Shown here: positions 27,843 through 31,574 of the stretch, one piece after another
Numbering within the stretch: the stretch's first letter is position 1
Layout: every line of letters starts with the position of its first letter
From: Terriglobia bacterium
GTDB lineage: Bacteria; Acidobacteriota; Terriglobia; Bryobacterales; Bryobacteraceae
Assembly (NCBI GenBank): GCA_020073325.1
Contig: JAIQFJ010000014.1
Span: forward strand, 1-33,882
Length of the DNA: 33,882 nucleotides
Direction: 5' to 3'
Notes under the pieces: generated by a model
Databases searched by the model: none
The model's input: the letters and a program-made list of their open reading frames with translations, nothing else
What the model was told of the DNA's origin: nothing
Translations under genes and position numbers: made by a program

Positions 27843-28723
27843 CCTTTTCCGAATTTATCGCCACGCAGCAGAAGCGGGTGGACGCGGCGCTCGATCGCCG
27901 GGTGCCGGCCGAATCGGTCGAGCCCACGACGATCCATCGCGCGATGCGCTACAGCCTGTTCGCCGGCGGAAAGCGGATGCGTCCGCTGCTGGCGATCGCC
28001 GCGGCGGATGCGGTTTCGGACGCGCCGGCGGGAATCGAATCGGCGGCGTGCTCGCTGGAACTGATCCATACCTATTCGCTGATTCACGACGATCTTCCGG
28101 CGCTTGACAACGACGATCTGCGGCGCGGGCGTCCGACGTGTCACAAAGTGTTCGGCGAAGCCATGGCGATCCTGGCCGGCGATGCCCTGCTGACGCTGGC
28201 GTTTGAAGTCCTGGCGAAGCTCGATTGCGTGGATCCCGAGCGGCGGTCGGCGCTGGTGGCGGAGCTGGCGACGGCGTCGGGAACCGTGGGCGGGATGATC
28301 GGCGGGCAGGTGTGCGATATCGAGGGCGAAGGAAAATTCGCCACGGCGGCGCTGCTCGAATCGATCCATCGCGCCAAAACGGGCGCGTTGCTCAAGGCAA
28401 GCGTTCGCATGGGCGCGATCTACGGCGGCGCCGACGCGGCGCAGCTCGACGCGATGACAAAATTCGGTGAGCACGTGGGACTCGCGTTTCAGATCGTCGA
28501 CGATGTGCTGGATGTCGAGCAGTCCTCGGAGGCGCTGGGAAAAACGGCGGGCAAGGACGCCAAGCAGCAGAAAATCACGTTTCCGGCGGTGTATGGAATC
28601 GAGCGGTCGCGCGAGATGGCGGAACAGGAGCGCATTCAGGCCCATCTTGCGCTGCAAATGTTCGACGATCGCGCCGAACGGCTGCGCGAGATTGCCGATT
28701 ACGTCGTCCGGCGTAACGCATGA
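27839..28723 (+). CDS. ispA: Polyprenyl (farnesyl/geranylgeranyl) diphosphate synthase
   Basis: This 294-aa protein has the trans-prenyltransferase signatures: the FAGGKRMRP diphosphate-binding segment, the first Asp-rich motif HDDLPALDNDDLRRG (Asp84, Asp85, Asp90), and the second in FQIVDDVLD. It condenses isopentenyl diphosphate with allylic diphosphates to make C15 (possibly C20) prenyl diphosphate for quinones, undecaprenyl lipid carriers and heme farnesylation. The gene order xseB-ispA is standard in bacteria. It overlaps both neighbours by 4 bp, so translation is probably coupled. Confidence 0.92.
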   Translation: MTFSEFIATQQKRVDAALDRRVPAESVEPTTIHRAMRYSLFAGGKRMRPLLAIAAADAVSDAPAGIESAACSLELIHTYSLIHDDLPALDNDDLRRGRPTCHKVFGEAMAILAGDALLTLAFEVLAKLDCVDPERRSALVAELATASGTVGGMIGGQVCDIEGEGKFATAALLESIHRAKTGALLKASVRMGAIYGGADAAQLDAMTKFGEHVGLAFQIVDDVLDVEQSSEALGKTAGKDAKQQKITFPAVYGIERSREMAEQERIQAHLALQMFDDRAERLREIADYVVRRNA

Positions 28724-29445
28724 TGGCCGCCGTCCGCAAAATCAGGCTCGATCAACTGCTGGTGGAGCGAGGCCTGGCCGATTCGCGAGAAAAAGCGCAG
28801 GCCCTGATTCTCGCCGGGCAAGTTCTGGTCGACGGACAGAAAAGCGATAAACCCGGCCGCAGCATCGGCGAAGGGAGCCGCGTCGAGCTGCTCGAAAAAA
28901 TGCCGTATGTGAGCCGCGGCGGATACAAGCTGGCGGCGGCGCTCGATCATTTTCACATCGACGTGAGCGCGCTGACCTGTATCGACGTGGGCGCGTCGAC
29001 CGGCGGATTCACGGATGTCCTGCTGCAACGTGGCGCCGCGCGCGTATGGGCGATCGACGTGGGGCACGCGCAGCTCGATTGGAAAATTCGCAATGATCCT
29101 CGCGTGGTGGTGCAGGAAGGCGTGAATGCGCGGCACCTCCGCGCGGAGGATTTCCCGCATTTCGATCTGGCGGTGTGCGACGTGAGTTTCATTTCCGCGA
29201 CGATGATCGTGCCCGCGATGGCGCCGCTGGCGGATCGGATGATCGTGCTGGTGAAGCCGCAGTTCGAAGTGGGACGCGAAGACGTCGGCAAGGGCGGGAT
29301 CGTGCGCGACCCGGCTCTGCACGCGGCTGCCTGCGAGCGCGTTCGCGCCGCGGTTGAAGCCGCGGGGTTCAAGACTGATATCATCGAGAGCCCGATCCTC
29401 GGGGCAGAGGGGAATCGGGAATTTCTGTTGTATGGCCACCATTGA
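28720..29445 (+). CDS. tlyA: TlyA-family rRNA 2'-O-methyltransferase
   Basis: The 241-aa protein has an N-terminal S4 RNA-binding domain (KIRLDQLLVERGLADSREKA, residues about 6-65) and an FtsJ-like SAM methyltransferase domain (CIDVGASTGGFTDVLLQRG). CDVSFISATMIVP and LVKPQFEVGRE complete the signature. TlyA proteins methylate 2'-OH groups in 16S and/or 23S rRNA. Two adjacent start codons (28720 and 28723) are possible. It overlaps ispA by 4 bp and nadK by 14 bp. A dxs gene, often found between ispA and tlyA, is absent here. Confidence 0.92.
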   Translation: MMAAVRKIRLDQLLVERGLADSREKAQALILAGQVLVDGQKSDKPGRSIGEGSRVELLEKMPYVSRGGYKLAAALDHFHIDVSALTCIDVGASTGGFTDVLLQRGAARVWAIDVGHAQLDWKIRNDPRVVVQEGVNARHLRAEDFPHFDLAVCDVSFISATMIVPAMAPLADRMIVLVKPQFEVGREDVGKGGIVRDPALHAAACERVRAAVEAAGFKTDIIESPILGAEGNREFLLYGHH

Positions 29446-30295
29446 TACGGTCGGGATCGTCTCGAAGCCGCGCAGCGAACTGGCGGCGCGCATCGTTCCG
29501 GAGCTGATCCGCTGGCTTTCCGATCGCGGCGTCCGGGTGCGGCTGGATGACGAGACGGCGCACTACGCGCAGGTTTCGCGCGGGCTGTCGCGTACCGAAG
29601 TGCCGCGGGGCGCGCAACTCGTCATCGTGCTGGGCGGCGATGGAACATTGCTTTAGGCCGCGCGCGCCATCGGCGGAGGCGATATTCCGCTGTTCGCGGT
29701 GAACCTGGGCGGGCTTGGATTTCTGACCGCGATTACCGTCGACGAGATTTATCCGCAGCTCGAACGCGCATTGCAGGGCGATTACCGCGTCGGCCGGCGG
29801 CGCATGCTGCATTGCGAGCATCGCCGCGGCAGCGACGTACTGGCCCGCTATGACGCGCTCAACGACGTCGTGCTGACGAAATTCGAAATCGCGCGCATGA
29901 TCGATCTCGAAATGCACATCGACGGCAATTTCGTATGCGTGTACCGGGCTGACGGGCTGATCATCGCGACGCCCACCGGGTCCACCGCGTATTCGCTTTC
30001 GGCCGGCGGGCCGATCGTGTTTCCAAGCGTCGGCGCGATCGTGGTGACGCCGATTTGTCCCCACACCTTGACCAATCGTCCCGTGGTTCTGGACGACGCG
30101 AGCGCAATTTCGGTGACGAATCTGAGCGACGATTCGGCGACGTATCTGACCATCGACGGGCAGGTGGGCGAGTTGCTGCGGCGCGGAGACGTGGTCGAGT
30201 GCAAGCGGTCTGAAAATTCGATTTGCCTGATTCGTCCGCCCGAGATGATGTTCTTCGACGTGCTGCGGGAGAAGTTGAAGTGGGGCGGGCGATGA
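29432..30295 (+). pseudogene. nadK: NAD kinase interrupted by an in-frame TAG
   Basis: From the ATG at 29432 one frame reads a full NAD kinase of 287 codons, except for TAG at 29654-29656 (codon 75), directly after the catalytic GGDGTLL motif (Asp70). The same frame continues with AARAIG, NLGGLGFLT, the ALNDVVLTK strand and TPTGSTAYSLSAGGPIV (about 180-196), all family signatures. Without the stop it would be normal. The fragments are 29432-29656 and 29699-30295 (possible GTG restart at 29699). Many NadK sequences have Ser here (GGDGTLLSAAR), so TCG to TAG is the simplest change. NAD kinase makes NADP and is normally essential, so a dead copy would need a paralogue, suppression, or a sequence error. 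Confidence 0.85.
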
Positions 30296-30374: not shown

Positions 30375-31574
30375 ATGAAGAAAATCTCGCTCACCACGTG
30401 GATCCTGATCGGGCTCGCAGCGGGGATCGCGGTTGGCGCGCTGTGGCCGGCGCAGGCGGTGAAAATGAGCCTGCTCGGCACGATTTTCCTGCGGCTGATC
30501 AAAGCGATCATCGCGCCGCTGCTGTTCGGGACGCTGGTGGTGGGGATCGCCGGCACGGGCAGCATCAAGACGATGGGGCGCATCGGCGGCAAGGCGATTC
30601 TGTATTTCGAAATCGTCACGACAGTCGCCCTGTTCATCGGATTGGGCACGGTGAATCTCGTAAAACCAGGCGCCGGCGTGCGTCTGGAGGGCGGCGGCGC
30701 CACGGCGCTGGCTGCGGCGAAGCAGGATTTTTCGCAGATTGTCGAACATATTTTCCCGACCAGCCTCATCGACTCCATGGCGCGCGGCGATGTCTTGCAG
30801 ATCGTGGTGTTCGCGTTCATCTTCGGCGCGGCATGCGCCGCGATCGGAGCGAAGGCCCGGTCCGTCGTGGAATTTTGCGACTCGCTTTCCGAAGTGATGT
30901 TCCGCTTCACGAACTACGTCATGCTGTTTGCGCCGTTCGGCGTCTTTGGCGCGATCGCGGCCACGGTGGGCGCCAAAGGACTGGGCGTTCTGTTGAACTT
31001 GGGCAAGCTGGTGGCGACCCTCTACGCCGCGGAGGCGATCGTGGTGCTGATCTGCTTCGGCGGATCGGCCATCGTCGCGCGGGTGCCGATCGGACGCTTC
31101 ATCCAATACGCGCGCGAACCGTTTCTGATCGCATTTTCGACGGCGTCGAGCGAGGCGGCGCTGCCGCGCGCGCTGGAGAACATGGAACAGTTCGGCGTGC
31201 CGAAACATATCGTGTCGTTCGTGTTGCCACTGGGATACAGCTTCAACCTGGTGGGCTCGACGCTGTATCTTTCGTTAGCCGCGGTTTTTATCGCGCAAGC
31301 GGGCGATATTCCCATGCCGCTCGGAACACAGCTCGTGATGATGCTGACCCTGATGCTGACCAGCAAGGGAGTCGCGGGAATCCCGCGCGCGGCGCTGGTG
31401 ATTCTGGCGGGGACAGCGTCGAGCTTCAATTTGCCGGCGGAAGGAATCGCGCTGCTGCTCGGAATCGACGCACTGCTCGACATGGCGCGGACGTCGGTCA
31501 ACGTGCTGGGAAATTGCCTGGCGACGGCCGTGGTGGCCCGCTGGGAAGGAATCTCGTTTTCGGCGAAGCGATAG
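30375..31574 (+). CDS. Dicarboxylate/amino acid:cation symporter (DAACS family)
   Basis: The 399-aa protein has the glutamate/aspartate transporter fold: hydrophobic helices through residue about 220, then hairpin loop 1 (STASSEAALPRALENM), the unwound-helix region (LGYSFNLVGSTLYLS), hairpin loop 2 (LTSKGVAGIPRAAL) and the substrate-binding last helix (DALLDMARTSVNVLGN). The Arg that holds the side-chain carboxylate in homologues is present in MARTSVN. Where GltPh has Asp405 in a GD pair, this protein has Asn (GN). It imports acidic amino acids or C4-dicarboxylates with Na+ or H+. It lies 79 bp after nadK and converges with the DCC/LMF gene. Confidence 0.88.
   Translation: MKKISLTTWILIGLAAGIAVGALWPAQAVKMSLLGTIFLRLIKAIIAPLLFGTLVVGIAGTGSIKTMGRIGGKAILYFEIVTTVALFIGLGTVNLVKPGAGVRLEGGGATALAAAKQDFSQIVEHIFPTSLIDSMARGDVLQIVVFAFIFGAACAAIGAKARSVVEFCDSLSEVMFRFTNYVMLFAPFGVFGAIAATVGAKGLGVLLNLGKLVATLYAAEAIVVLICFGGSAIVARVPIGRFIQYAREPFLIAFSTASSEAALPRALENMEQFGVPKHIVSFVLPLGYSFNLVGSTLYLSLAAVFIAQAGDIPMPLGTQLVMMLTLMLTSKGVAGIPRAALVILAGTASSFNLPAEGIALLLGIDALLDMARTSVNVLGNCLATAVVARWEGISFSAKR

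Follow-up and report, generated by a model that had tools for sequence, protein, structure and literature searches.

A single amber codon in the nadK frame

What is the meaning of a stop codon placed inside the gene of an enzyme that is regarded, in the available part of PMC7660225, as essential and ubiquitous? The question is raised by a NAD kinase gene (nadK) located in the window, that is, the whole 33.9-kb stretch of DNA that was analysed. Is its in-frame TAG translated, does it inactivate the gene, or is the base itself wrong? The features of the locus are as follows:

28720..29445, + strand: S4 + FtsJ methyltransferase gene (tlyA-like), upstream and overlapping the nadK start; domain matches
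29432..30295, + strand: nadK frame (NAD kinase) with one internal TAG; open reading frame and domain matches (Pfam, NCBIfam)
29432..29653, + strand: nadK first piece, 74 residues, C-terminal GGDGTLL; PF01513 positions 1-86, 36 bits
29654..29656, + strand: amber codon 75 of nadK, in frame; 94 of the 96 distinct relatives have Ser or Ala here
29657..30292, + strand: nadK second piece, 212 residues: the C-terminal domain, which contains TPTGSTAYS; PF20143 positions 1-125 of 126, 122 bits, and PF01513 positions 88-130
30375..31574, + strand: sodium:dicarboxylate symporter family gene, downstream of nadK, with TAG as its own terminator

The S4 + FtsJ methyltransferase gene at 28720..29445 resembles tlyA; further upstream lie genes for the exonuclease VII small subunit and polyprenyl synthetase. 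No other interrupted gene was recognised within the window by a scan for stops in coding frames, sorted by eye. An Rfam scan of the window gave no match, and promoter and terminator scans gave 0 and 1 sites, respectively, as compared to 0.3 and 1.0 expected.

Because of the TAG at 29654-29656, which directly follows the codons for VIVLGGDGTLL, nadK is not one uninterrupted reading frame. The two pieces, searched separately, contain the PF01513 and PF20143 domains and the GGDG motif that place the gene among the NadK proteins. When searched alone, the first piece matched positions 1-86 of the 130 of PF01513 and the second piece positions 88-130, the latter with 23.2 bits (below the curated 25.5). 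NCBIfam models of NAD kinase agree; for example, in PRK01231 positions 7-80 correspond to the first piece and positions 82-293 to the second. Since the two same-frame pieces match adjoining parts of the models, the interruption is limited to a single codon and the frame does not shift, as the first-pass annotation had proposed; judged from the family models, this arrangement is not due to chance. With respect to the NadK of Bryobacteraceae-type Acidobacteriota (PF01513 + PF20143), the frame, the domains, GGDG and the near-invariant residues are the same, whereas TAG at codon 75 occurs in none of the relatives searched.

An in-frame GTG at 29699, 15 codons past the stop, opens a frame of 198 codons, from which translation might restart to give two cooperating NadK pieces. 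Such a split enzyme is extremely improbable: the restart would lose residues 76-89, including the AAR that follows the site in most relatives, PF01513 spans the break, and the relatives have neither the stop nor a split.

Codon 75 and the gene in relatives

Among 60 relatives, a PF01513 match above cut-off was found in 59, and none of these NadK matches contains a stop; the remaining genome (G005, 82% complete) gave a weak PF01513 match only. In a survey of the phylum, 390 of 396 genomes gave a match, and among the matches listed only that of the present assembly has a stop. For the alignment of codon 75, 109 loci were collected, 7 were dropped (the gene being missed by the motif pattern) and identical proteins were merged, which left 96 distinct relatives. 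The residue at the site is Ser in 79, Ala in 15, Thr in 1 and Met in 1, and TCG is the commonest codon. Serine, which had been put forward as a plausible original residue, is indeed plausible here; the two nearest relatives also have TCG. Among the best 80 of at least 570 loci, the two nearest records, both metagenome genomes, encode proteins 79% (Bryobacteraceae bacterium) and 76% (Acidobacteria bacterium) identical to the second piece.

As a side observation, among the matches listed, the second piece is matched at 64% identity by a NadK from a record titled Arcobacter sp. (DYJN01000006.1); to judge from this sequence, the name looks wrong for that contig.

No decay of the gene is apparent around the stop. 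All 64 of the columns that are near-invariant in the 96 distinct relatives are retained, and 8 rare residues were counted, as compared to a median of 7 in the other 96 (range 0-42; 46 of the 96 with at least 8). Against the two nearest relatives, pN and pS were 0.25-0.26 and 0.48-0.62 before the stop, 0.13-0.16 and 0.45-0.69 after it, and 0.17-0.20 and 0.52-0.62 in the neighbouring tlyA-like gene. These comparisons indicate that the part of nadK after the stop is under constraint, and no sign of decay elsewhere in the gene was given by invariant columns, rare residues or pN/pS. The stop is therefore either recent or not real, two cases that the pN/pS figures cannot separate.

Copy number of nadK in the draft assembly

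The assembly, a draft from an uncultured member of the Acidobacteriota (6.54 Mb in 600 contigs, of which the window is contig C190), is 93.4% complete and 4.5% contaminated. According to the first-pass annotation, a second intact nadK would make the interrupted copy an ordinary pseudogene. Searches with models of both domains found no second NadK in the draft, which represents about 93% of the genome, and the interrupted copy is the only one. A match on contig C391 was considered and discarded, as its 24.9 bits are below the cut-off and the protein is of the YegS/DAGK type.

The stop may be a real and very recent nonsense mutation that leaves this copy dead, with another NAD kinase encoded outside the assembled sequence, or with the sequenced cells belonging to a short-lived mutant lineage. 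At about 93% completeness a second copy could be missing from the draft, and the quarter of the assembly described below contains two other recognised mid-gene TAG codons, one of which interrupts a gene whose two close paralogs are intact, a pattern expected of ordinary pseudogenes. We nevertheless consider such a mutation unlikely, since the draft lacks a second NadK, the rest of nadK is free of decay, and the 60 relatives have one strong NadK match each (59 genomes) or none (G005), any extra matches reaching at most 36 bits.

TAG as a terminator and the release factors

In 375 kb of the assembly, the terminators of 263 called genes were TAG in 71 cases (27%), TAA in 88 and TGA in 104; the calls were made by a simple script based on codon use, not by a standard gene finder. 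The coding score of the 40 codons past the terminator was -0.22 for TAG, -0.23 for TAA and -0.30 for TGA, so that the sequence past TAG is as non-coding-like as that past TAA. Also the full-length glnS gene terminates with TAG. TAG is thus a normal stop signal here, and a common one.

No match to a full release factor 1 (RF1) above cut-off was found in the draft, whereas RF1 is present in 20 of 22 other genomes searched, the two without it being 64-65% complete. This absence would be expected if UAG had been reassigned to an amino acid throughout the genome. Loss of RF1 was rejected, however, because the first bases of contig C291 (1-96) encode a 31-residue RF1-like C-terminal tail followed by prmC, an order that matches that of a relative (G007); RF1 appears to have been cut by the assembly and not lost. 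Release-factor matches at the ends of contigs C293 (1-513) and C519 (3-356) read like pieces of RF2, a reading based on what we take to be its SPF signature. Release-factor genes are, in fact, truncated at contig ends. A genome-wide reassignment, already contradicted by the 27% of called genes, including glnS, that end with TAG, and at odds also with the recognition of only three mid-gene TAG codons in 1.62 Mb, is hardly conceivable.

Two minor observations concern the same genes. A TGA contained in the prmC match was suspected to be an internal stop, but the translation places it at the end of the gene, where it is a normal terminator. In a relative (G043, C235:2010-2723), a third release-factor-like match of 206 bits contains one TGA and one TAA, the other two matches being stop-free; this locus is perhaps a release-factor pseudogene.

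The tRNA set and decoding of the TAG

The draft contains 38 tRNA genes, and ARAGORN read anticodons for all of them, one (on C248) with two letters only. A tRNA with anticodon CUA, proposed earlier as a thing to look for, was not found among them: a CTA anticodon occurs in none of the 38 tRNAs read, including six serine tRNA entries. The set is incomplete (Cys, Ile, Gly-GCC, Lys-TTT and Pro-TGG, among others, are missing), and the absence of CTA from the draft therefore proves little. The two-letter anticodon belongs to a tRNA-like sequence at C248:1243-1313 with a six-base anticodon loop, CUGUAA.

Suppressors of the supD type read amber codons by means of a mutant serine tRNA. Insertion of Ser in this manner would suit the nadK site, which is Ser in most relatives; unlike the supD type, no tRNA with a CTA anticodon was read here, TAG is a frequent terminator, and one mid-gene TAG lies at a Gln/Glu site (see below). 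Programmed readthrough of the stop was also considered and rejected: the stop is not shared by the relatives searched and no structured element follows it. The fold of the 80 bases from the stop is in fact not unusual, with a z of 0.50 and 136 of 200 shuffled sequences folding at least equally well.

Other mid-gene TAG codons in the genome

The search for stops was extended to 141 stretches (1,617,744 bases, 25% of the assembly including the window). The scan required 40 open coding-like codons on each side of the stop in the best-scoring frame, and stops in other settings were missed. It gave 94 candidates (35 TGA, 32 TAG and 27 TAA), which were sorted by eye from their translations, with family searches for some; most of them appeared to be the end of a gene followed by the next gene in the same frame. 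Six were judged to be mid-gene, three TGA and three TAG, with a few others ambiguous; no mid-gene TAA was recognised in the 25% of the assembly scanned.

The mid-gene TAG codons are that of nadK and those at C439:4262 and C258:10512. The first of the latter two is in frame in a gene for an M20/amidohydrolase-type peptidase; 19 other loci were examined, and the site is Ser in all 10 that matched the pattern. Two close paralogs of this peptidase, encoded in the same genome, are free of stops in the part that matches and are 80-81% identical over the last 132 residues. The TAG at C258:10512 lies in frame in a FliN-like gene, close to its beginning and where conservation is weak, and aligns with Gln in one relative (G016) and Glu in another (G010). 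From these alignments, the three sites have no residue in common and no single amino acid fits them all. Under this codon use TAG is the commonest product of nonsense-making substitutions (52%), and finding it in three cases out of three is therefore unsurprising (about 0.14). Two of the three are Ser sites, as compared to an 18% share of TCG among the TAG-making changes; with three cases, the excess of Ser is weak.

The TAG of nadK might be real and partly decoded, by a mutant serine tRNA acting as an amber suppressor or by leaky readthrough, yielding enough NAD kinase. Ser is the commonest residue at both the nadK and the peptidase sites, and the tRNA set of the draft is incomplete; but the lack of a CTA anticodon in the tRNAs read, the 71 called genes terminated by TAG with non-coding-like sequence downstream, the alignment of the third TAG with Gln/Glu and the unremarkable fold 3' of the stop all make such decoding improbable. 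Its serine-only form, suggested by the two Ser sites, became less likely in view of the TAG in the FliN-like gene and of the anticodons read. Still less probable is the specific case in which the unassembled part encodes an amber suppressor (a mutant serine tRNA being the simplest form) that sustains an essential single-copy nadK, with TAG remaining the terminator of about a quarter of the genes; this would amount to an ambiguous UAG code. A genuine TAG that is read through would represent natural ambiguous decoding of UAG in an essential gene.

Most probable origin of the nadK stop

Most likely, nadK does not reveal a novel mode of decoding. A tolerated or recoded stop, which the first-pass annotation implied, finds no support, considering that TAG is a frequent terminator, that an RF1-like tail is present, that the stop is unshared among the relatives searched, and that the other mid-gene TAG codons recognised stand at different amino acids. 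The TAG probably reflects an error at one base of the consensus, or a minority variant. This is the simplest explanation because the gene is constrained, single-copy and essential, the stop is seen in one draft only, and TAG is an everyday terminator. The organism would then carry a normal nadK, and the TAG would be one wrong base in a fragmented, metagenome-type assembly, or a base of a minority strain that won the consensus; no mechanism would need to act on it. We infer, then, that the base is wrong or rare.

Other features of the draft point in the same direction, as further essential genes are broken (the release-factor pieces at contig ends) and several tRNAs are missing. On the other hand, the contig of the window (33.9 kb) is among the longer ones examined and has no other recognised broken gene, and two of the three mid-gene TAG codons are located at Ser sites, a pattern also expected of a serine suppressor.

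In draft genomes, consensus errors of this kind and stops in pseudogenes likewise affect one base, with no other damage and no shared ancestry. A screen of 250,000 genomes describes, in the part of the paper available, in-frame stops of pseudogenes that derive from changes of one base and can be mistaken for reassignment (PMC8629427); that part speaks of transitions from certain codons, whereas TCG to TAG is a transversion. Our literature search for stops in metagenome genomes caused by assembly errors found no paper. Two consequences follow for similar loci. When one in-frame stop appears in a metagenome-derived draft, read support is called for before a functional reading, and recoding can be told from error even without reads by the frequency of TAG as a terminator together with the residues found at the other mid-gene TAG codons of the genome.

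Mid-gene TGA codons

The three mid-gene TGA codons (C456:5386, C573:6151 and C180:3218) each split an AhpC/TSA-type protein, at what is presumably the redox Cys site of this family. The pieces match adjoining positions of the model, with both pieces at C573 and the first at C456 below the curated cut-off. SelA is present on contig C262 (411 bits), and a tRNA-Sec match was found on C130 (75 bits), with a model that also matches serine tRNAs and that gave weak matches in all 14 controls, above cut-off in 5 of them. These three TGA codons probably encode selenocysteine and the genes are probably those of selenoproteins, which have been reported in Acidobacteria (PMC1794560, in the part available).
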